Shown: in pieces, positions 2,437-19,380 of the stretch
How the letters are laid out: the number at the start of each line of letters is the position of its first letter
How positions within the stretch are numbered: the first letter of the stretch is position 1
Assembly (NCBI RefSeq): GCF_011046895.1
Contig: NZ_CP049249.1
Location: 620,001 to 684,000 of the forward strand
DNA from: Rhizobium rhizoryzae
GTDB lineage: Bacteria; Pseudomonadota; Alphaproteobacteria; Rhizobiales; Rhizobiaceae
Direction of reading: 5' to 3'
DNA: 64,000 nucleotides
The notes under the pieces: generated by a model
The model's input: the letters and a program-made list of their open reading frames with translations, nothing else
Database searches by the model: none
What the model was told of the DNA's origin: nothing
Translations under genes and position numbers: made by a program

Positions 2437-3284
2437 CCCTTGGTCGCTCCGAGCGTCAGGCCTGCAATGAAGTGTTTTTGCATGAGGAAGAACATCGCGA
2501 CTGGCGGAAGGGCCGCGATGATGGATCCGGCCGAGACAAGATGCCAGGCGGCAACCCATTGACCGTTCAACGAATAGAGCCCGGCCGTGACCGGCATGGC
2601 GTGCTGCCCTTGAACCAGCACCGTCGCCCAGAAATAATCATTCCAGACAAAGGTGAACACGAGAACGGACAGAGCGGCGATGGCCGGACGCATCAACGGC
2701 AGGACGATGTAGCGAAAGATCCGCCACTCAGAGACACCCTCGACACGGGCAGATTCAATCAGCGCGAATGGAAGCCCCTTGATGAAGTTTCGCATGAATA
2801 GCGTGCAGAACCCGGTCTGAAAGGCAACATGGAAGAGAACAAGACCGAGCGTTGTATCGTAAAGCCCTGCCTTCAGCGTCATGTCTCGGACAGGCACCAT
2901 CAGGATCTGGAACGGAATGAAATTTCCCGCCACGAACATGAAGAAAAGCAGCAAGTTGGCGCGGAACTTGTAGACCGCAAGCGCAAAACCCGTGAGGCAT
3001 GACAAAGCTACAGCGCCGATAACGGTGGGGATCGTAACCTTGAAGGAATTGAGGATGTAAAGCCCGATAGGCGAGTCCCTGAACACAGCCGTGTAATTCT
3101 CGACGCCGCCGAAGCCGGACGGAATGCCGAAATAGTTGCCGGCAGCGAGATCACTCGCAGGGCGCACCGAGGTTATTGCGACCCCGATCAGCGGCAACAG
3201 CCAGAGAACCAGCGCCAGAGGAAGCACCACCTTGTAGGCGGTCTGAGCGAACGGAGACGCTTTCTGAATGGGAGTAGGAAACAT
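2433..3284 (-). CDS. Sugar ABC transporter permease (MalG type)
   Basis: Inner-membrane permease of the CUT1 family, 283 residues with about six hydrophobic segments. The C-terminal half carries the EAA loop (ESARVEGVSEWRIFRYIVLPLMRP) that docks on the ATPase. The start codon shares a base with the stop of the MalF-type permease upstream (TGATG), and its own stop overlaps the alpha-galactosidase start, so the genes are translationally coupled. With its partner it should form the channel for an alpha-galactoside taken from the binding protein at 4281-5513. Family assignment is firm; the cargo is inferred from the neighbouring enzyme. Confidence 0.93.
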   Translation of the reverse strand: MFPTPIQKASPFAQTAYKVVLPLALVLWLLPLIGVAITSVRPASDLAAGNYFGIPSGFGGVENYTAVFRDSPIGLYILNSFKVTIPTVIGAVALSCLTGFALAVYKFRANLLLFFMFVAGNFIPFQILMVPVRDMTLKAGLYDTTLGLVLFHVAFQTGFCTLFMRNFIKGLPFALIESARVEGVSEWRIFRYIVLPLMRPAIAALSVLVFTFVWNDYFWATVLVQGQHAMPVTAGLYSLNGQWVAAWHLVSAGSIIAALPPVAMFFLMQKHFIAGLTLGATKG

Positions 3285-4192
3285 CAGCTATTCCTTTCCT
3301 GCATCAGCATGCGCACGATGAAGAGCGTGATGAAGATCATCATGATCAGGAAGAGAACCACGGCTATCGCAGCCCCATAGCCCATCCGGAACCCATATTC
3401 CGACAGCGCCTGCTCGTACATGAAATAGGAGAGAACCTGGCTTGACCCGTAAGGCCCACCGGAGGTCATGATGGAGACCAGGTCGAAGGAGCGCAGGGAG
3501 CCGATGACTGTCACGACCATGGCGATGAAGGTTGCAGGTGCGAGCTGGGGCAGGACCACATACCACAGCAGCTTGATGCCCTTGGCGCCGTCCATGCGCG
3601 CCGCTTCAACCTGTTCGGGATTGATGTTGTTGAGACCCGTCAAATACAGGATCATGCAATAGGCGGTCTGCGGCCAAAGGCCCGCGACGATGATTCCGTA
3701 GGTCACGAAGCGCTCGTCCGCCAGAATGGCGATCTGCTGTCCGGTCAGATTTTCGATCAGCTTCGAGAACAGCCCGAAATCCGGCGCGTAGAACCAGGTG
3801 AAGATCAGACCAACGACAACCTGGCTGATGACGAAGGGAAAGAAAAACAGTGACTTGTAGAGCCGGATACCGGTAACCGTCTGGTTCAGGAATAGCGCGA
3901 CGGCGAGACCGGCCGGAATGGAGAGCAGATAGAGCACCAGCCACAGAACGTTGTTCTTCAGCGAGGTGTAGAAGGAATTGTCGCCCATCAACTCGACATA
4001 GTTGCCAAGGCCAATCCAGACCTTATCGCCGAGACCATCCCAGTCATGAAAACTGATCCAGATCGACTCGATGATCGGAAAGAGCACGTAGATAACGAAC
4101 ATCGCCATGCCTGGCGCCAGGAACAGCCAGGGCGCAAGCCTTTGCTGGTTCTTTTTCCAGTAGCCGGTTGACGACGGAACAGCCTCGCTCAT
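3284..4192 (-). CDS. Sugar ABC transporter permease (MalF/UgpA type)
   Basis: A 302-residue CUT1 permease with an N-terminal transmembrane segment (PWLFLAPGMAMFVIYVLFP) and an EAA loop near residue 215 (EAARMDGAKGIKLLWYVVLPQL). I choose the ATG at 4192, preceded by AGAGGCG, because upstream in-frame codons give an atypical basic leader that overlaps the binding-protein gene. It lies 88 bases downstream of that gene, across a strong hairpin, and is coupled to the second permease. It is half of the membrane channel of the alpha-galactoside importer. Confidence 0.92.
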   Translation of the reverse strand: MSEAVPSSTGYWKKNQQRLAPWLFLAPGMAMFVIYVLFPIIESIWISFHDWDGLGDKVWIGLGNYVELMGDNSFYTSLKNNVLWLVLYLLSIPAGLAVALFLNQTVTGIRLYKSLFFFPFVISQVVVGLIFTWFYAPDFGLFSKLIENLTGQQIAILADERFVTYGIIVAGLWPQTAYCMILYLTGLNNINPEQVEAARMDGAKGIKLLWYVVLPQLAPATFIAMVVTVIGSLRSFDLVSIMTSGGPYGSSQVLSYFMYEQALSEYGFRMGYGAAIAVVLFLIMMIFITLFIVRMLMQERNS

Positions 4193-4280: not shown

Positions 4281-5513
4281 CTACTTGTGTACGCGCTGAC
4301 GGATCTTCTCGAGGCGCTCCAGGATGGCGTCAGCCTTGTCCGGCTTGACCATGAATTCCTGGAAACCCTCCATGCCGGCCTTTGCCATTTCGGCGTTCGC
4401 ATCACGGTCGTAGAACTGCGCGAGTGCATAGGCACCCGAAAGCATTTCAAAGCCTTGCTTCAGGAACACATCCTGCGGCTTTTCGGCCTTGTTGTTGACC
4501 GGAAGCTGGCCGAGCGTCGCGTTCATCTTGCTCTGCGCAGCGGGCGATGCGACATAGGCGAGGAATTTCTTCGCGTCTTCCTTGTTCTTGGCCTTGGCCG
4601 GAATGTGGAAGGTGTCTGTCGGAGCCTCTTCGGCGACAGGCAGGTTCGGCGTGATCTGCGGGAACTGCAGGAAGCCGATCTGCTCCTCCTTCAGGCCGCC
4701 GCTCTTCATCGTCGCGACGGCGAAGTTACCCATCAGGTACATGGCGGCCTTGCCCTGAACCATCTGCGGTACGGCGTCCTGCCAGTCGATGGCAGCATGG
4801 TTTGCAACGAAGTAGCCCGGCTTCACCAGTTCTGCCCACTTGGCGAACACGGCCTTTACGCGCGGATCCGTATACGGAACCTTGCCGGAAGTGAGGTCCA
4901 TGTGGAACTCGTAGCCGTTGACGCGCAGGTTCAGGTAATCGAACCAGCCGCCGGTTGGCCACAAGGCCTTTGTGCCGATTGTGAAAGGCGTGATGCCCGC
5001 AGCCTTCAGCTTTTCGCAAGCGGCCAGAAGCTCGGCCCAGGTCTTGGGAGGCGTAATGCCCTGCTTCTCGAAAATGTCCTTACGATAGTAGATGCCCCAC
5101 TGATAGTAGGTGTAGGGAACACCCCACTTCTTGCCGTCAATCGTCATCGAAGATGCTGCGGACTTGAGCTGGTCATTCAGTCCATTTGCGGTCCAGACAT
5201 CCGAAACATCGGCAAACAGGCCAGCCTTTACGAAAGGCTCCATGCGGTTGCCAGCATACCATGCCGCCACATCCGGCGCATCGGCAGTCAGAAAGTTGCG
5301 GATTGCCGCCTTATAGCCTTCGTGGTCGAAGTTGTTCCACTTCACCTTGATGTCCGGATGCGCCTTCTGGAAATCGGCAATCAGTTCCTCCATCGCCTTC
5401 TTCGGCGCCGGATCGGAATGGTCCGAGTTGATCACGATTTCACCCGCGAATGCCGTGGATGAGAATAAGGCAGCAGACAAGGCAAGGGCCTTCAGGCCGT
5501 TGAAAAAGGTCAT
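4281..5513 (-). CDS. Periplasmic alpha-galactoside-binding protein (CUT1 family SBP)
   Basis: A 410-residue extracellular solute-binding protein of the MalE/UgpB class. Residues 1-23 form a signal peptide ending AFA, and the mature protein starts GEIVINSDHSD. Aromatic residues suited to sugar stacking are frequent (for example YTYYQWGIYY near residue 137 and WPTGGWFDYLNLR near 185). A strong ribosome site (GGGAGG) precedes the ATG. It is the first gene of the operon and is divergent from the AraC-type regulator. An alpha-galactoside binding protein is studied in Agrobacterium (MelB, associated with galactinol and melibiose); this gene fits that role by context, but I cannot confirm orthology. 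Confidence 0.88.
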   Translation of the reverse strand: MTFFNGLKALALSAALFSSTAFAGEIVINSDHSDPAPKKAMEELIADFQKAHPDIKVKWNNFDHEGYKAAIRNFLTADAPDVAAWYAGNRMEPFVKAGLFADVSDVWTANGLNDQLKSAASSMTIDGKKWGVPYTYYQWGIYYRKDIFEKQGITPPKTWAELLAACEKLKAAGITPFTIGTKALWPTGGWFDYLNLRVNGYEFHMDLTSGKVPYTDPRVKAVFAKWAELVKPGYFVANHAAIDWQDAVPQMVQGKAAMYLMGNFAVATMKSGGLKEEQIGFLQFPQITPNLPVAEEAPTDTFHIPAKAKNKEDAKKFLAYVASPAAQSKMNATLGQLPVNNKAEKPQDVFLKQGFEMLSGAYALAQFYDRDANAEMAKAGMEGFQEFMVKPDKADAILERLEKIRQRVHK

Positions 5514-5668
5514 GTTTTCCTCCCGATGACCGTCATTCAGTCGCTAACGCCCGACACCCTGCCGCCAATTCGATGAACGCGGATCCGGGTTTCAAGCATG
5601 ACAATATCATTTGCTTTAAAACCGTAATGATCTACCGTCATTCTATCGATCTTTTCCGGAATCCTAAG
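5514..5668. promoter_or_regulatory. Divergent control region with three copies of an ATNACGGT-like element
   Basis: This 155-bp gap must hold both the leftward operon promoter and the promoter of the AraC-type regulator. The ten bases ACCGTCATTC occur at 5529-5538 and again at 5634-5643, and the related ACCGTAATGA lies at 5621-5630. All three have the same orientation, and the two close copies are 13 bp apart. Same-direction repeats of this kind are the usual binding pattern of AraC-family activators. I could not assign convincing -35 and -10 boxes. Confidence 0.5.
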
Positions 5669-6580
5669 ATGGAACGTTTGGCAAAAATCAATAATGACGA
5701 ATCCGTCCCGGTTCATCCTGACCATGACCCACGACATCCGCTCGTCATATTTGGAGATCATCGGTTCTGTGCGGGAGAATGCCTCGATGTGCAGCGCATG
5801 GCCGGGCCGCACATGCATAGCCAGATTGAACTTAATTTCGTCCTTCGTGGACGCATGAGCTACTGGTTCGATGGGCGCGAGTTGACGATTGATGAAAACC
5901 GCCTTTGCCTCTTCTGGGGAATGATCCCGCATCAAGTCACGGACCGGGAGGAAGGCACGCAGTTCGTCTGCCTCTATGTGCCGATGTCGGTGCTCCTGGG
6001 TTTTCCCAACCTCAGCCGGTTCCGCAACGCCGTCTTCCGCGGCGCTGTGATCGAGGCGATGGAGATGCGCCCCTGGGAAAGCGAGGTCTTCAAGCGCTGG
6101 CGGGATGAGTTGCTATCCGGTGATGCCGAACTGATGGAGATCGTTCGCTCTGAACTGACAGCGCGGGTCATGCGCATCGAGCGCGAAGGATGGCGTGATC
6201 TGAGGGAGCAAGGTGACGCAATCGCAAGCTTGGGCAAAAGAGATGCGGATTGGGTCATTCATGTCGAGAAAATGCTAAGATTCATTGGAGAAGGCGCCTT
6301 GAGCGAAATCTCCGCCGAAGATGTGGGGCGGGCTGCGGGCCTGCATCCCAACTATGCCATGACACTGTTCCGCAAGGCGGTCGGCATGACCATCAATCAG
6401 GCCATCATTCGGCACAGACTGGACACGGCACAATCGCTTTTGATCGCAACAGATCTGCCGATCACGGAGGTTGCCTACGAGTCAGGCTTTGGTTCGCTCT
6501 CCACGTTTTATGAGGCATTCCAGCGTCGGTTTAAGGAAAAGCCCGTTCTGTATCGCAAACGCCTTCGCCCTTCCGGCTAA
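5669..6580 (+). CDS. AraC-family transcriptional regulator of the alpha-galactoside operon
   Basis: A 303-residue protein with an N-terminal cupin-like sensor domain (about residues 20-150, including PHMHSQIELNFVLRG and GMIPHQV) and a C-terminal double helix-turn-helix (about 200-300; the second recognition region is ITEVAYESGFGSLSTFYEAFQRRF). I start at the ATG at 5669, giving MERLAKINND; an in-frame ATG at 5573 adds 32 residues that look like intergenic sequence. Divergent placement and the sugar-sensor architecture resemble MelR/RhaS-type activators. It probably activates the operon at 4281-1 when an alpha-galactoside is present; this is inference from position. Confidence 0.88.
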   Translation: MERLAKINNDESVPVHPDHDPRHPLVIFGDHRFCAGECLDVQRMAGPHMHSQIELNFVLRGRMSYWFDGRELTIDENRLCLFWGMIPHQVTDREEGTQFVCLYVPMSVLLGFPNLSRFRNAVFRGAVIEAMEMRPWESEVFKRWRDELLSGDAELMEIVRSELTARVMRIEREGWRDLREQGDAIASLGKRDADWVIHVEKMLRFIGEGALSEISAEDVGRAAGLHPNYAMTLFRKAVGMTINQAIIRHRLDTAQSLLIATDLPITEVAYESGFGSLSTFYEAFQRRFKEKPVLYRKRLRPSG

Positions 6581-6598
6581 TCGGAACAACCAAGGATC

Positions 6599-6620
6599 GG
6601 CGGCCGGTTTCCCGGCCACC
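6599..6620. terminator. GC-rich hairpin between convergent araC-type and DUF992 genes
   Basis: A perfect 6-bp core stem (GGCCGG at 6602-6607 with CCGGCC at 6612-6617, loop TTTC), extended by two further G-C pairs across one mismatch, lies between the convergent stops at 6580 and 6631. There is no T tract on either side, so it may act as a weak bidirectional terminator. Confidence 0.45.
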
Positions 6621-6630
6621 GCCTTGCCCA

Positions 6631-7134
6631 TCAGCCTGCGTGGTTCAGTTGGAGACGAGAAACGCCGGCGGCGACGTTCAAACCTGTTCCAACCTGAGCA
6701 CTGACTGGCTGAAGGGCAAAATTCCTGGAGTTTCCGCCAATCAGCGCGTTGGCACCGACGCCGACCCCGGCGGCAGCAGACGCGGAGGCGCCGACATAGC
6801 TGCCAGCCAGCGAGCCTTCGCCGATGCGAGACGCAGCAGTGCTGACAACCACCCAGTTGAGGTAGGTTTTTCCCGTCACGCCAATATCGAGACCGAGCTT
6901 GCCGATCGAACCGGTGTAACGCTCAACCTTGCCATTCTGCTGACGGAACTGGCACTGCACCTTCTTGCTCGAACCGAGGATCAAGCCCACGCCACCTTCG
7001 ATTTCGCAACTCAGCGCACCGATACGCTGACCAGGCTCCGCTGCTTGGGCACGGGAAGCTTTTCCGCTTGCCGCAAAGGCGGCCGGAGTTGCTGCGAGAG
7101 ATGCGATTGTGGCGAGAAGAATGATCTTTTTCAT
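6631..7134 (-). CDS. DUF992 family exported protein (copy 1)
   Basis: A 167-residue protein with a clear signal peptide (MKKIILLATIASLAATPAAFA), so it is exported to the periplasm or beyond. The mature part matches the DUF992 pattern: GALSC, GGVGLILGSSKKVQCQF, YTGSIGKLGLDIG, then a glycine- and alanine-rich C-terminal half. Two conserved cysteines could form a disulfide. Function is not known for this family, which is common in Rhizobiales. It follows the BON-domain gene by 26 bases and is probably the third gene of the CsbD-BON-DUF992 operon. A paralogue lies at 9552-10085. Confidence 0.85.
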   Translation of the reverse strand: MKKIILLATIASLAATPAAFAASGKASRAQAAEPGQRIGALSCEIEGGVGLILGSSKKVQCQFRQQNGKVERYTGSIGKLGLDIGVTGKTYLNWVVVSTAASRIGEGSLAGSYVGASASAAAGVGVGANALIGGNSRNFALQPVSAQVGTGLNVAAGVSRLQLNHAG

Positions 7135-7160
7135 AATGTTCTCTTCCTTCAGAAGCTGAT

Positions 7161-7484
7161 TTAGCTATGGTCCGGGATGACCGCGTCATTAACAGCGATA
7201 TAGCGAGGCAGATGGAACCGTGGCTGCACGGCGAGGTCGGCCAGAACGCTACGTCCGGTGAAGACTTCAGCGATAGCAATCGCGGTCTCCAGTGTATCGG
7301 TGGAGTCCACCTCACCTGTCAGGACAATCCGACCATCCTCGAAGGCACAGGTAATGCTGCTTTTTTCGAGTCCCTGCGCATAGGCAAGGATCGACTGCAA
7401 GGCAGCACAAACACTGTGATCCTGGGGGTGTCCGCGCATCTGAGAACGTGCGTGTGCGACAATCATCATACCTGCCTCGCTCAC
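7161..7484 (-). CDS. Small BON-domain-like protein
   Basis: About 107 residues from the GTG at 7484, or 102 from the ATG at 7469; the region GAGGCAGG sits too close to that ATG to decide. Residues 25-90 resemble a BON domain (alternating helix and strand, with ITCAFEDGRIVLTGEVDSTDTLETAIAIAEVFTGRSVLADLAV). BON domains bind phospholipid or other envelope surfaces in OsmY-type stress proteins. No signal peptide is evident, so a cytoplasmic or membrane-peripheral place is possible. It lies 15 bases after the CsbD gene and 26 before DUF992, which suggests one transcript. The domain call is by pattern only. Confidence 0.7.
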   Translation of the reverse strand: MSEAGMMIVAHARSQMRGHPQDHSVCAALQSILAYAQGLEKSSITCAFEDGRIVLTGEVDSTDTLETAIAIAEVFTGRSVLADLAVQPRFHLPRYIAVNDAVIPDHS

Positions 7485-7499
7485 GGGTTGATCCGGAAA

Positions 7500-7679
7500 C
7501 TACTTGAGGGCGGACTTCACGGAGTCCTTGGCCTTGCCGACAGCGCTCTGCGCTTCGCCGGCAACCTTGTCGGCCTTGCCCTCGATCTCGAGGTCACGAT
7601 TGCCCGTTACCTTGCCGACGGCTTCCTTGATCGTACCCTTCGCCTGACGGGCAGCACCTTCGATCCGGTTCTTATCCAT
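7500..7679 (-). CDS. CsbD-like stress protein
   Basis: A 59-residue gene beginning MDKNRIEGAARQAKGTIKEA and ending KSALK. It has the CsbD repeat pattern: two copies of a lysine/glycine/alanine-rich segment (GKVTGN near 22, GKADKVAGEAQ near 34, GKAKDS near 48). CsbD proteins are small, abundant, poorly understood stress-response proteins. The ribosome site AAGGAG sits 8 bases before the ATG. It appears to be the first gene of a three-gene operon with the BON and DUF992 genes. The coding call is strong because every feature of the family is present despite the size. Confidence 0.88.
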   Translation of the reverse strand: MDKNRIEGAARQAKGTIKEAVGKVTGNRDLEIEGKADKVAGEAQSAVGKAKDSVKSALK

Positions 7680-7772
7680 GATCCTACTCCTTGTTTCAGT
7701 TGGGCCAGCAGCGCTTCATTGCGCTACATGACTGGAGATAGGACCGGAAACGGCGCTGATGCAGAGAAAGAA

Positions 7773-7791
7773 CTACTAATCCTGCTAGTAG
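7773..7791. promoter_or_regulatory. Inverted repeat upstream of csbD-like gene / after luxR-type gene
   Basis: CTACTA (7773-7778) and TAGTAG (7786-7791) form a perfect 6-bp inverted repeat with a 7-base spacer. It lies 94 bp upstream of the CsbD start and begins just past the stop of the PAS-LuxR gene. It could be an operator for that regulator or a weak terminator; the T-rich stretch on its leftward side (TTCTTTC) is modest. Confidence 0.35.
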
Positions 7792-7795
7792 GTTT

Positions 7796-9310
7796 TCACC
7801 TTTTTTTGCCTTTCGATGTCTTTTTGGCAGAAGATGCACCGTTCCCGCTGAACCCACGCTCGCGCGCCCATATCACGGCTGCGGCACGCCGATTGACACC
7901 GATCTTGTTGTAGAGGGACGCCACATGATTGCGAATGGTATGGCGCGACAGGCAAAGCGCATCGCCCATCTCGGCATCACTCAAACCATCGCAGATCAAT
8001 CCGAGAATCTCGCTCTCTCGCTCGCTTAGATCTCTGAGTTCCGCGGACGGGCTTTTCCCGGTAGAAGCCTGACGCAAGGTGGCGAGGCGATCCACGACAG
8101 TTCTGCTGAACCAGGATGTATCGGCCATGACGCTTTCGATGGCCTCGATGAGTTCCAGTTCCGACCGTCTTCTTTCCGTCACATCCTGCACCGACCACAG
8201 CACGCACGCATGGTCATTGATCTCTACCCGTTCTGCAGAGACCAGACATTCAGCCGTATCGCCATTTGCCAACATCATACGCATGGCGACGTCCCTCACA
8301 GGCACATTGTCACGCAAATGCTGCTCGATTTCCTTACGGGCCTTCGTGTCTTCCCAAAGCTTCAAATCGGCTGCCGTCTTTCCAATGACAGATTCGATCT
8401 TCCTGCCACTCAGCGACGAGAAAGCTTCATTGACTTCCATGAAGACGAAGTCATCCAACCGCGCGATTGCGGCCGGTGCAGGCGACAAGCGGAATGACTT
8501 GGAGAACCTCTCTTCACTCTGGCGAAGAGCGTTCTGCGCCTTGCGACGCCCATCGAGATCGGCAAAAGTAAACAGCATGCAGGGCACCTCACCGACAGGG
8601 ATGGGCTCGCCCGCCACAATGACCAATCGATCTCCACCATCCGGAAGCGGTATCAGGGCCTCGCGCTGACGTATGACCCTGCCTTCCGCCAGCTTGATCA
8701 TGGCGTCATCACCCGTCTCGCAATTGGAGAACAGTCCGATTTCCTCGACCATCTTGCCCAGCACATCGTCTTGGCTCAGTCCGGTCATTTCCATGAAACC
8801 CTGGTTGACGCGGATGAAGCGTTGGTCGTCCAGCCTGCATATGAGTCCCGGCGCGGGATTGGCGTTGAAGGATTTTTCGAAACGCTTTTCTGCCTCATAG
8901 CGCGGGGTTTCGTCGCGAATGATCAGCACCAGAACATCAGGCTTGGCACCGGCGTCTTCGAGGATCAGCGTTCGCACGACATGAACCCAGCACGCGTCAG
9001 GATCGCTGGTCGGAGAGACTTCGATGGTGACCCCGTCCAATGCTTCCCCGCCCAGTAGCCGTTCAAGCGGGTACTGCCCCTCGTCGAGCGTGTGGTTGTT
9101 TCGATACCGAAGAGTGAAGCGGCGGCGGTAATCCGCAACAGTCTCGCCAAGTCCGGCAAGATCTTCCACGCGGTGGCTCTTCAGGGCTGCTTCGTTTGCC
9201 CAACCGATCCTGCCATCCAGCTCCACAAGGATAAGACCGTCTGTCAGGCCTGCGATAAGCTGCTGCAGGACGGTGCGGTTTATGCGTGGTGCTTCAGCGG
9301 CTTCGTTCAT
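7796..9310 (-). CDS. Orphan triple-PAS sensor with LuxR-type DNA-binding domain
   Basis: A 504-residue soluble regulator. Three PAS-like domains follow one another (about residues 14-130, 140-255 and 265-380), the last two starting with related FEKSFNANPAP and FSKSFRLSPAP segments. The C-terminus is a LuxR/FixJ helix-turn-helix (about 428-490: LSERESEILGLICDGLSD, then LSRHTIRNHVASLYNKIG). There is no receiver, kinase or transmembrane segment, so it probably senses an internal ligand, redox state or light directly and binds DNA itself. The LOV cysteine motif is absent. It lies between the CsbD operon and the second DUF992 gene, which are candidate targets. The ligand is unknown. Confidence 0.88.
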   Translation of the reverse strand: MNEAAEAPRINRTVLQQLIAGLTDGLILVELDGRIGWANEAALKSHRVEDLAGLGETVADYRRRFTLRYRNNHTLDEGQYPLERLLGGEALDGVTIEVSPTSDPDACWVHVVRTLILEDAGAKPDVLVLIIRDETPRYEAEKRFEKSFNANPAPGLICRLDDQRFIRVNQGFMEMTGLSQDDVLGKMVEEIGLFSNCETGDDAMIKLAEGRVIRQREALIPLPDGGDRLVIVAGEPIPVGEVPCMLFTFADLDGRRKAQNALRQSEERFSKSFRLSPAPAAIARLDDFVFMEVNEAFSSLSGRKIESVIGKTAADLKLWEDTKARKEIEQHLRDNVPVRDVAMRMMLANGDTAECLVSAERVEINDHACVLWSVQDVTERRRSELELIEAIESVMADTSWFSRTVVDRLATLRQASTGKSPSAELRDLSERESEILGLICDGLSDAEMGDALCLSRHTIRNHVASLYNKIGVNRRAAAVIWARERGFSGNGASSAKKTSKGKKR

Positions 9311-9551
9311 GGAGATCCGGTTCCAATTTGAATGGACCTTAAAGTGTGAACGATCTTGTGCAGGACAAGTGGCATTATCCTGATGTTGAACTCGGTGGAA
9401 AAGACGTCTGGCGACTAAAGAAAATAAACAAAGGGTTTACGAGGATCATTTTTTTGCCACGCGCGTTGATGAGGAAATTCACAAGCGTCAGCATTGCTGA
9501 GTCGAGAACTGCCGCACCAAACGCATAGAGTAATACCCAAGGAGTAAACCC

Positions 9552-10085
9552 ATGAAGAAAATCCTCGCAGTTGCCATCTCTGCTCTGCCCGTCATTGCAA
9601 GCGCTGGCACAGCATTTTCAGCCGACACCATATCCCGCTATGACCGCGCTCCGGTTGCTCAGGAGCAGGACCAGCGCGGTGGCGTGCGCATCGGCTATCT
9701 GGATTGCACGATCGGTGGCGGCGTTGGCTACGTGCTCGGTTCTGCGAAGGAAGCTGACTGCGTCTTTACGTCCGCGATGGGTGGTGAGCCGCTCGACCGT
9801 TATACGGGCGTTGTGCGCAAGATGGGCGTAGACCTTGGCTTCACGACGAAACAGCGGATGGTCTGGGCCGTTTTCGCTCCGACTGCCGGTTACCACCGCG
9901 GTTCACTCGGCGGCCTTTATCAGGGCGCAACGGCTGAGGTAACCGTTGTTGCAGGCGTCGGCGCCAACGTTCTCGTCGGCGGCACGTCCGGATCGATCCA
10001 CCTTCAGACGGTCAGCGTCCAGGGCCAGCTTGGCCTGAACCTCGCTGCAACCGGAACCTCTGTGACGCTTACTCCTGCAAGCTGA
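9552..10085 (+). CDS. DUF992 family exported protein (copy 2)
   Basis: A 177-residue protein with a signal peptide (MKKILAVAISALPVIASAGTAFS) and the DUF992 core: GYLDCTIGGGVGYVLGSAKEADCVF, YTGVVRKMGVDLGF, then a Gly/Ala-rich C-terminal region rich in predicted beta strands. It is clearly paralogous to 6631-7134, sharing the cysteine pair and the YTG..KxGxDxG motif. AAGGAG precedes the ATG. It is a single-gene unit ending in a strong terminator and is divergent from the PAS-LuxR gene across 241 bp. No biochemical function can be assigned. Confidence 0.87.
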   Translation: MKKILAVAISALPVIASAGTAFSADTISRYDRAPVAQEQDQRGGVRIGYLDCTIGGGVGYVLGSAKEADCVFTSAMGGEPLDRYTGVVRKMGVDLGFTTKQRMVWAVFAPTAGYHRGSLGGLYQGATAEVTVVAGVGANVLVGGTSGSIHLQTVSVQGQLGLNLAATGTSVTLTPAS

Positions 10086-10110
10086 GGTCGGTAGTATCAA
10101 TGAACATGAA

Positions 10111-10140
10111 AGCGTCTGCTCCGGCAGGCGCTTTTTTCTT
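10111..10140 (+). terminator. Strong rho-independent terminator after DUF992 copy 2
   Basis: A 9-bp stem (AGCGTCTGC at 10111-10119 with GCAGGCGCT at 10124-10132, one G-U pair) closed by a TCCG tetraloop and followed by a run of six T. This is a textbook intrinsic terminator 26 bases past the DUF992 stop. Confidence 0.93.
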
Positions 10141-10254
10141 GGCCTTGTCTTTATTCAGATTTACTTGAAAAGACTTGATCTGTGATCGCTGGTTCGATTT
10201 GGATCCATCGGCACATGACCAACCCACCGCTTCTATGCCGAACCGGAGTTCCAG

Positions 10255-10890
10255 ATGACCGCACTCGTCGACAATGCCAAGCGATTGGCTGACCGCCTCC
10301 TGTCGTCCTACTCGGGTTCTCGACTACTTGCAGGCATGGCCGGAGCACCCGGATCCGGAAAGTCGTCGCTGGCGGATGCAGTAGTGGAAGAGATCAACCA
10401 CAAGCGGCCGGGCTTTGCCGCGGTCTTCCCAATGGACGGATTTCACTACGACGACGCCGTGCTTCGAGATATGGGTCGCCTTGCCAACAAGGGTGCCATC
10501 GATACGTTCGATGCGCATGGTCTGAGACATATGCTGCAAAGGCTGAAGGCCAATGAAGATGATACAATCGCCGTTCCGGTTTTTGATCGATCCATTGAAA
10601 TTGCCAGGGCTGGGGGTCGCCTCATCCCGCGTGAGACGGGCATCATCGTTTGCGAAGGTAATTATCTGCTGATGCGCAACGAGCCTTGGGACCGGCTGCA
10701 TCAGATCTTTGACCTCACCGTTCTGGTTGAAGTGCCGGTCGAGGAGTTGCGCCGACGTTTGCGAGAGCGCTGGTTCTTTTACGGTCTCGACGAGGAAGGC
10801 ATTCGTCGAAAGCTGGACGACAATGACATTCCAAACGGGGTGGCCATCATGGACGGCAGCATCGAACCTGATGTCCGGGTTCCAAATTGA
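10255..10890 (+). CDS. P-loop kinase of the uridine kinase/PanK-like family (FrcK-like)
   Basis: A 211-residue kinase with a Walker A motif (GAPGSGKSS, residues 29-37), an aspartate-containing MDGFHYDD segment near residue 61 that fits the substrate/catalytic site of the phosphoribulokinase/uridine kinase family, and a lid-like RRRLRERWFFYG near 165. The length is normal. Similar kinases occur as frcK with the rhizobial fructose importer, but here the downstream neighbour is an ion-type permease rather than a sugar ABC system. Its phosphate acceptor, a sugar or a nucleoside, cannot be told from sequence alone. Confidence 0.8.
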   Translation: MTALVDNAKRLADRLLSSYSGSRLLAGMAGAPGSGKSSLADAVVEEINHKRPGFAAVFPMDGFHYDDAVLRDMGRLANKGAIDTFDAHGLRHMLQRLKANEDDTIAVPVFDRSIEIARAGGRLIPRETGIIVCEGNYLLMRNEPWDRLHQIFDLTVLVEVPVEELRRRLRERWFFYGLDEEGIRRKLDDNDIPNGVAIMDGSIEPDVRVPN

Positions 10891-18174: not shown

Positions 18175-19380
18175 TTATTTTACGAGGTCACAGCCGCTCT
18201 TGGCCGGATCGATATAGGCTTCCTTGCCAGGAATGGTGGCAAGAACCTTGAAGTAGTCCCAGGGCTTCTTGCTCTCGGACGGCTTCTTGACTTCCAGCAG
18301 GTACATGTCCTTGATCATGCGGCCATTCGGGCCAACAGTGCCCTTGCCCGCGAAGACGTCTTCGACCGGCATGGAATGCAACTGCTTGGCAACGGCTTCC
18401 GTCTCATCCGTTCCGGCCTTCTGGATGGCCTTCAGGTATTGAAGAACAGCAGAATAGGTGCCCGCCTGGATCATGTTCGGCATTTTGCCAGTGCGCTTCA
18501 TATAACGCTCGCCGAACTTGCGGCTCTCGTCGTCACGATCCCAGTAGAAACCTTCCGTCAGGGTCAGACCCTGTGCCGCTTCAAGACCGAGGCCGTTGAC
18601 TTCGGCAAGCGTGAAGAGCAGCGCTGCAAGGCGCTGTCCGCTCTGCGTGATGCCAAATTCCGCTGCCTGCTTGATGGCGTTCTGCGTATCCGCGCCAGCA
18701 TTCGCGAGACCGACGACATTCGCACCGGATGACTGCGCCTGAAGCAGGAACGACGAGTAGTCTGCGTTGCTGAGCGGATGGCGGACTGCACCCACCACTT
18801 CACCACCATTGGCCTTGACGAATTCGCTGGTCTGGCCCTCGAGCGAGTAACCGAATGCGTAGTCAGCCGTCAGGAAGAACCACTTCTTGCCGCCCTGCTT
18901 GACGAGCGCGCCGCCGGTGCCAACAGCCAGAGCATGTGTATCGTAGGCCCAATGGAAGCCATAGGGGCTGCACTGCTTGCCCGTCAGTTCTGTCGTCGCA
19001 GCACCGGTAACGATGTCGATCTTCTTCTTTTCCTTTGCAATCGCCTGCACCGCGAGAGCGACGGAAGACGTCGTCAATTCCATGATGGCATCGACCTGGT
19101 TTGTGTCGAACCACTGGCGTGCGATGTTGGAAGCGATGTCCGGCTTGTTCTGATGGTCAGCGTCAACAATCTCGATGGCGCTATCGAGCACCTTGCCGCC
19201 AAAATCTTCAACGGCCATCTTTGCCGCCTCGACAGAGCCCTTGCCGCCGAAATCGGCATAGACACCGGACTGGTCGTTCAGAATGCCGATCTTCACCTTT
19301 CCGTCGGAAACGGAAGCAGCAAACGCCATGGATGTGCTGGCAAGAAGCGCCGCAGCCGACGCCAGAATAGTTCCGCGCAT
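18175..19380 (-). CDS. HAAT-family periplasmic binding protein (LivJ/amide-type)
   Basis: A 401-residue Leu/Ile/Val-type periplasmic binding protein. The signal peptide (MRGTILASAAALLASTSMAFA) is followed by KVKIGILNDQSGVYADFGGKG, the usual first strand and ligand loop. The start at 19380 gives a clean signal peptide. Ligand-loop residues differ from classic LivJ (NDQSGVYADFGG, ELTTSSVALAVQ), and this subgroup is often linked to aromatic or hydroxy acids rather than leucine. It is the first gene of the leftward operon and has a LysR regulator divergent to it. The uptake role is sure; the ligand is not. Confidence 0.88.
   Translation of the reverse strand: MRGTILASAAALLASTSMAFAASVSDGKVKIGILNDQSGVYADFGGKGSVEAAKMAVEDFGGKVLDSAIEIVDADHQNKPDIASNIARQWFDTNQVDAIMELTTSSVALAVQAIAKEKKKIDIVTGAATTELTGKQCSPYGFHWAYDTHALAVGTGGALVKQGGKKWFFLTADYAFGYSLEGQTSEFVKANGGEVVGAVRHPLSNADYSSFLLQAQSSGANVVGLANAGADTQNAIKQAAEFGITQSGQRLAALLFTLAEVNGLGLEAAQGLTLTEGFYWDRDDESRKFGERYMKRTGKMPNMIQAGTYSAVLQYLKAIQKAGTDETEAVAKQLHSMPVEDVFAGKGTVGPNGRMIKDMYLLEVKKPSESKKPWDYFKVLATIPGKEAYIDPAKSGCDLVK

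Follow-up and report, generated by a model that had tools for sequence, protein, structure and literature searches.

Organization of the locus

We analysed a 64,000-nucleotide (nt) stretch of the Rhizobium rhizoryzae genome, hereafter the window, which sits on a 1.2-Mb contig of this 4.98-Mb genome, and we focus on a triple-PAS LuxR-type regulator, the small csbD-BON-DUF992 operon that it precedes, and a dyad-symmetric element between the two. The regulator gene (7796-9310, minus strand) encodes 504 amino acids with Pfam matches to PAS_4, PAS_8, PAS_9 and GerE, and lies on the same strand as csbD, directly upstream of it across a gap of 116 bases. The operon opens with csbD (7500-7679, minus strand), whose product matches CsbD (PF05532) at 75.5 bits against a cut-off of 40, continues after 15 bases with a gene for a small, single-domain BON protein (7161-7484, minus strand; Pfam BON, 33.5 bits), and ends after a further 26 bases with a DUF992 gene, DUF992-A (6631-7134, minus strand). 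A second DUF992 gene, DUF992-B (9552-10085, plus strand), is divergent from the regulator, and both DUF992 products match PF06186 at 165.1 bits (cut-off 22.7). Open reading frame calls and Pfam thus confirm the genes, families and two operon gaps given in the initial annotation of this DNA, from which the dyad and the same-strand position of the regulator were absent. The BON protein has a single BON stretch, reaches 19.6 bits against the OsmY equivalog model (cut-off 174), and is divergent, with 24-44% identity to relatives other than those of Rhizobium lemnae and Rhizobium sp. FKY42.

The dyad, TACTAGcaggaTTAGTA (7774-7790), has the form TACTAG-N5-TTAGTA and is our proposed operator; the same element can be written as a 19-base-pair (bp) dyad, CTACTA-N7-TAGTAG (7773-7791), for which the window holds a single match at up to two mismatches, where shuffled sequence would give 0.06. 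Across the genome the dyad is the only exact match, and 14 other places lie within one mismatch, ten of them inside long reading frames and the remaining four (L119, L120, L123, L126) perhaps intergenic. An alignment of 35 loci anchored on the dyad points to a weak -35-like hexamer, CTGCAT (7759-7764, minus strand), 9 nt after the dyad, and to a -10-like hexamer, CTATCT (7736-7741, minus strand), 17 nt after the -35-like element and 32 nt after the dyad. The TCTG of the -35-like region is conserved in these sequences, and 17 of the 35 loci have CTANNT at precisely this 32-nt distance from the dyad, with two other offsets occurring once each. Scans of 5500-10500 for sigma-70 promoters and terminators reported nothing at the dyad; they returned one promoter-like and two terminator-like sites, below the shuffle means of 2.1 and 4.8. 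Many Rhizobiaceae loci have a AAAAAAGGTCA-like element immediately before the dyad; the window copy of this element, at about 7795-7808, is a weaker form that overlaps the regulator stop codon.

Conservation and spread of the regulator-operon unit

Only the regulator served as query in collecting related loci. In 15 loci from named genomes csbD lies just downstream of the regulator in every case; ten of these, from Rhizobiaceae, also carry BON and DUF992 (the latter shortened in FKY42), and no DUF992 or BON match was found in the five from Lysobacteraceae, Luteimonas and Rhodanobacter. The closest regulators in named genomes are those of R. lemnae (99%) and FKY42 (96%). A wider collection of 72 distinct regulators was obtained from 61 hits less eight that were at least 97% identical, and 20 further hits less one, with loci repeating the genomes of the window, L033 or L034 (L063-L065, L076) excluded from these counts. 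Here csbD lies downstream on the same strand within 1.5 kb in 47 of 72, 45 of these within 400 nt, and elsewhere within 1.5 kb in another eight, giving 55 of 72, Beta- and Gammaproteobacteria included; one of those eight, L132, really has csbD just downstream, its reading frame having been called too long.

Conservation is tightest among 24 distinct Rhizobiaceae core members (at least 63% identity to the window regulator), in which csbD follows in 23, DUF992 is present in 22 (in FKY42 an internal deletion disrupts it; L082 and L104 gave no match), and BON is detected in 20 (not in L067, L068, L082 or L104). In the core member L104 the dyad precedes a PAS-HWE kinase gene. The order regulator-dyad-csbD, usually followed by BON and DUF992, is kept in Rhizobiaceae although the outer flanks differ; in the window, one side carries an AraC-family regulator (MelR-like, under that model's cut-off) with a solute-binding protein, and the opposite side a nucleoside-kinase-like gene with an ArsB/CitMHS-type transporter. 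These comparisons show the regulator to be conserved as a unit with the csbD-BON-DUF992 operon, and co-location in related genomes, the check that the initial annotation had set for itself, holds for csbD, BON and DUF992-A. One copy of the cassette may be decaying: in L068, csbD matches fall in two frames (3079-3245; counted as present), and in the first search the regulator carried one internal stop.

The distribution of the regulator is patchy. It occurs in 10 of 57 genomes of the genus at E<=1e-30, the R. rhizoryzae genome included, and in 19 of 297 genomes of the family, 3 of 337 of the class and 20 of 398 of the phylum at E<=1e-100. It is also carried by 21 plasmid records from Alpha- and Betaproteobacteria, including two plasmids that are typed as conjugative; 13 of the 21 were fetched.

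The dyad across loci and genomes

The sequence TACYAG-N5-CTRGTA, matched at 10 or more of 12 positions, occurs within 200 nt after the regulator stop codon in 35 of 72 regions, including all 24 core members, and a slightly looser consensus is found in 37 of 72 regions as against 13 of 1440 windows inside regulator genes. Over the 35 loci, information is concentrated in the arms (1.52 bits per column, compared with 0.33 in the spacer, 0.60 upstream and 0.43 downstream). The sub-threshold loci include variant dyads (L045, L047, L111, L134), and the gammaproteobacterial named loci carry the half-site GCACYAG (L041, L042, L044) or GCACTAA (L045, L047). Where csbD lies 5' of the regulator, a perfect dyad precedes csbD in L110 and a near-dyad in L108. 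In locus L150 (reverse-complemented), a different perfect dyad, GCATCAG-TGCAA-CTGATGC (3576-3594), is found roughly 0.5 kb before a csbD that stands on the 5' side of the regulator; it resembles a GCATCA/TGATGC repeat in L090.

Genome-wide scans covered 16 Rhizobiaceae genomes that carry core-type regulators. They gave 14 exact copies of TACYAG-N5-YTRGTA, never more than one to a genome, and each copy lies no more than about 80 nt from where the regulator match ends; G300 and G017 have a degenerate copy only, again at the regulator end. Sixteen other Rhizobiaceae genomes, hand-picked as controls and with 14 listed as lacking a regulator match, yielded five scattered exact sites, one of them in G030, which like G021 is not among the listed regulator matches and whose search coverage, as for G021, is uncertain. 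Rarity of the site alone proves little, because a reversed control pattern is commoner than the site, so that general word scarcity explains part of that rarity; the evidence is the placement of all 14.

Properties of the regulator

Above the Pfam cut-off, the regulator combines a PAS sensor and a C-terminal LuxR/GerE helix-turn-helix (HTH) in one protein, the architecture of a one-component PAS-LuxR regulator, and no receiver, kinase or autoinducer-binding domain appears among Pfam families at E<=0.001, in line with the earlier description of a PAS-LuxR protein that has neither receiver nor kinase. Pfam locates only the second and third PAS domains; the N-terminal first is assigned from the secondary structure of a predicted model, which has three PAS-like sets of strands and helices and a C-terminal HTH region. 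This model has a mean predicted local distance difference test (pLDDT) value of 76 and a predicted template-modelling score (pTM) of 0.38, at which the domain arrangement is not resolved. The nearest fold to the PAS part is the triple-PAS regulator PpsR (4hh2, Foldseek E 1.2e-17), and the HTH is closest by sequence to domains of the NarL/VpsT/EL222 type (profile match to EL222, 8a5r).

Conservation within the family is marked at several histidines and cysteines. His46 and His110 in the first PAS domain are kept in 53 of 53 regulator sequences, and Cys158, Cys244, Cys355, Cys369 and Cys440 in 49-51 of 53, Cys440 being located in the HTH and the other four in the PAS part. The LOV cysteine motif, NC[RK]FLQ, is found in none of the 53.

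Sister triple-PAS LuxR genes in the same genus precede other kinds of gene. Bacteriophytochrome genes follow directly in L069, L070, L071 and L073 (assigned by PAS_2/GAF/PHY in L070 and L071, by PAS_2 on a partial sequence in L069, and by eye in L073), and a KaiC-like ATPase gene follows directly in L072. A dyad matching at 10-11 of 12 positions lies between regulator and downstream gene in L069-L072, and the L073 dyad, read by eye, overlaps the regulator stop codon. Among other relatives of the regulator, DUF2382 follows in L093 (Pfam) and as the second gene in L096 (by eye), where the regulator is followed by a transmembrane-looking protein with no Pfam match; a similar protein is seen by eye in L082. 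In another family of the phylum, a GCACTAG-type dyad precedes a DUF1652 gene in L131, L134 and L135, as assigned by Pfam in L135 and by eye in the other two.

The DUF992 proteins and the envelope

The two DUF992 proteins are the only DUF992 matches in the genome and are 41% identical. As the initial annotation held, each carries at its N-terminus a stretch that by eye resembles a signal peptide, and the two share a cysteine pair, C43/C61, which is invariant in 12 aligned sequences. In a FastTree phylogeny (midpoint rooted; local support 0.71 at the cassette node), 21 cassette DUF992 tips form one group that contains no other DUF992, and DUF992-B clusters with ordinary copies, the latter drawn from the 30 best loci of a search that found DUF992 in 121 of 151 genomes. 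Of nine Rhizobiaceae loci that include 8 kb of 5' flank, only two have DUF992-B next to the regulator, those of R. lemnae and FKY42, which are nearly identical. In FKY42 (L034), DUF992-A has a large internal deletion (10177-10382), and DUF992-B is intact and 99% identical to that of the window. The dyad was also considered as a means of autoregulation or of DUF992-B control from the regulator/DUF992-B intergenic region (9311-9551), and was rejected there, with no match within three mismatches. DUF992-B, which had been counted in, does not seem to be part of the regulator unit because it has no site, belongs to another DUF992 clade, and adjoins the regulator in one lineage only.

For DUF992-A itself, an envelope role is a lead. 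A DUF992 protein, BR0708, is listed among the outer-membrane proteins of Brucella suis in a portion of PMC6377625. The predicted DUF992 structure, which is all-beta, has low confidence (pLDDT 62), and it is matched best by Brucella COG5400 (EipA, 5uc0), at a Foldseek E of 0.058, below the aligner's trust level, and with a Z score of 7.6 over 106 residues (root-mean-square deviation 3.9) that is within 1 of the VapG/VapD rows. EipA is described in part of PMC10787603 as a periplasmic protein, required for envelope-stress resistance and possibly lipid-interacting. At E<=0.001, Pfam shows DUF992 and not the EipA family (DUF1134) in the DUF992 proteins. A sequence search against solved structures gave six matches (E 0.022-1.5), to proteins of other kinds, and was set aside. 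The label of envelope stress once attached to the whole locus is not supported at that breadth, since CsbD and BON have no signal peptide visible by eye and only DUF992 looks exported.

Discussion

Overall, we consider it likely that the regulator is a dedicated one-component protein that binds the dyad and activates csbD-BON-DUF992-A as a single-target cassette. Gene order, the dyad with its conservation and near-exclusivity, and the spacing of the -10-like element can be read directly from the DNA; from these we infer binding, dimerization, activation, a signal and the functions of the proteins. The regulator would be a cytoplasmic one-component switch whose PAS domains sense a small signal, and whose GerE/LuxR-type HTH, as a dimer, would bind the 17-bp TACYAG-N5-YTRGTA element between the regulator stop codon and csbD. 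The dyad centre would then lie about 53 bp upstream of the predicted start (near -53), a position compatible with an activator, and binding most likely activates csbD-BON-DUF992-A, because a dyad at about -53 precedes a poor -35 and a better -10 element. The three products may be protective proteins, two of them, CsbD and BON, acting in the cytoplasm and the third, DUF992-A, in the periplasm or the outer membrane. Regulator, site and operon would move together as a cassette that has essentially a single target in each genome, a package that resembles a transferable stress switch serving a single gene set. Thus the earlier proposal of a regulon survives in its core, a regulator and operon conserved as a unit with a dyad, and gives way in its breadth: on sequence evidence the term is too wide, as none of the 16 genomes scanned holds more than one exact site, with further degenerate sites possible.

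Several observations weigh against this model or narrow it. No csbD lies within 1.5 kb of 17 of the 72 regulators, 37 of 72 regions fall below 10 of 12 for TACYAG-N5-CTRGTA, and no dyad was recognised at, for example, L105, L112, L087, L096 and L099. The 35 dyad loci are related, with 24 from one Rhizobiaceae clade, and the 16 scanned genomes were picked for core-type regulators, leaving out four genus and eight family genomes with distant regulators. The reversed control pattern, at 4-20 per strand per genome in both genome sets, is commoner than the site itself. Where csbD lies 5' of the regulator, the consensus dyad is absent before csbD in the stretches scanned in L106, L113, L138/L150 and L129/L149. 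On the signal, we favour, with low confidence, redox state, possibly coupled to light; this guess draws on conserved cysteines and gene context, and no cofactor motif was found.

The weak -35 match also leaves room for the opposite sign of control, in which the regulator would act as a repressor of the operon until the signal releases it. PpsR, the fold relative, is a repressor, and nothing else specific speaks for this arrangement; the dyad stops about 9 nt short of the -35-like element, on its upstream side, and so stays clear of the inferred promoter core, and we regard repression as unlikely. We think it slightly less likely still that the dyad is a weak intrinsic terminator or messenger RNA end of the regulator, with csbD transcribed from an unrelated promoter. 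The dyad does stand close behind the regulator stop codon, often followed by T-rich DNA, and in L041 it is part of a strong RNA hairpin (z -4.95), a further point on the other side of the scale from an operator. However, the RNA fold is no better than that of shuffles in the window (z 0.39) or in L035 (z 0.59), the terminator scan did not report the dyad, and its arms are conserved as specific sequence and not merely as pairs. The dyads of L110 and L108, which stand before csbD and not behind the regulator, likewise argue against a terminator.

It is very doubtful that the operon belongs to the EcfG general-stress regulon, with the proximity of the regulator incidental. Part of PMC7083833 describes csbD as a direct EcfG target in Sphingopyxis granuli, with the same promoter form, GGAAC-N16-CGTT, that stands upstream of the other csbD of this genome (C4:44117; L075, about 1480-1750). 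At the cassette, however, GGAAC-N15-18-CGTT is missing, its two matches in the window being at 18391 and 23808 only, and an EcfG promoter for the cassette csbD was rejected accordingly; moreover, the linkage of regulator and csbD is retained in Alpha-, Beta- and Gammaproteobacteria. The two csbD genes of this genome look to be under different control, because only the other has an EcfG promoter. A wider envelope-stress regulon, with both DUF992 genes as well as the csbD operon under the regulator, would be compatible with most of our model and could draw on the divergent, adjoining position of DUF992-B and on the Brucella outer-membrane protein, but the empty intergenic region, the placement of DUF992-B outside the cassette group and its lineage-specific adjacency make it highly improbable.

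A broader and more speculative generalization can also be put forward, to which we would give somewhat less than even chances. Triple-PAS LuxR proteins of three proteobacterial classes may constitute a family, so far without a name, of transferable stress switches that each act at a single site, sensing redox or light through conserved cysteines and running in parallel to EcfG/RpoS. Their usual partner would be csbD, with a site of the same kind standing in some lineages before bacteriophytochrome, KaiC-like, DUF2382, DUF1652 or sensor-kinase genes. CsbD, BON and DUF992 proteins are widespread and functionally obscure, and a dedicated regulator with about one site per genome would offer a direct handle on when the operon is needed. 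In this context, the cassette would show control of csbD outside the general stress response in Alphaproteobacteria, via a module that apparently moves between species, and the bacteriophytochrome and KaiC-like genes to which sister regulators are linked allow the idea of a light or redox input to be put to the test.

Relation to known systems

In the open-licence literature, a search for CsbD with LuxR and a PAS domain returned nothing, as did one for DUF2382 with CsbD, and titles and abstracts for CsbD with LuxR held nothing on such a system; all three are weak evidence. The closest structural parallel is PpsR/CrtJ, which likewise joins several PAS domains to an HTH and includes the top structural match; its HTH is of the Fis type, whereas that of the window regulator is GerE/LuxR, and the regulator reaches 21.9 bits against the NCBIfam PpsR-CrtJ model, whose cut-off is 275.4. 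EL222, a LOV-LuxR one-component photoreceptor, pairs a sensor of the PAS superfamily with a LuxR HTH like that of the regulator, but the window-type regulators differ in lacking its LOV cysteine motif. The EcfG-controlled csbD genes of Alphaproteobacteria belong to the same family as the cassette csbD, which has its own linked regulator in place of an EcfG promoter. There is a likeness in overall design to the PAS-LuxR regulators of Streptomyces polyene clusters, PimM and PteF, which have an N-terminal PAS domain, a C-terminal LuxR HTH and targets within their own cluster, and whose kind had previously been found only in polyene clusters, according to a section of PMC9394381. PimM and PteF have one PAS domain and serve polyene clusters, whereas the regulator described here has three, stands beside stress genes, and belongs to Proteobacteria.

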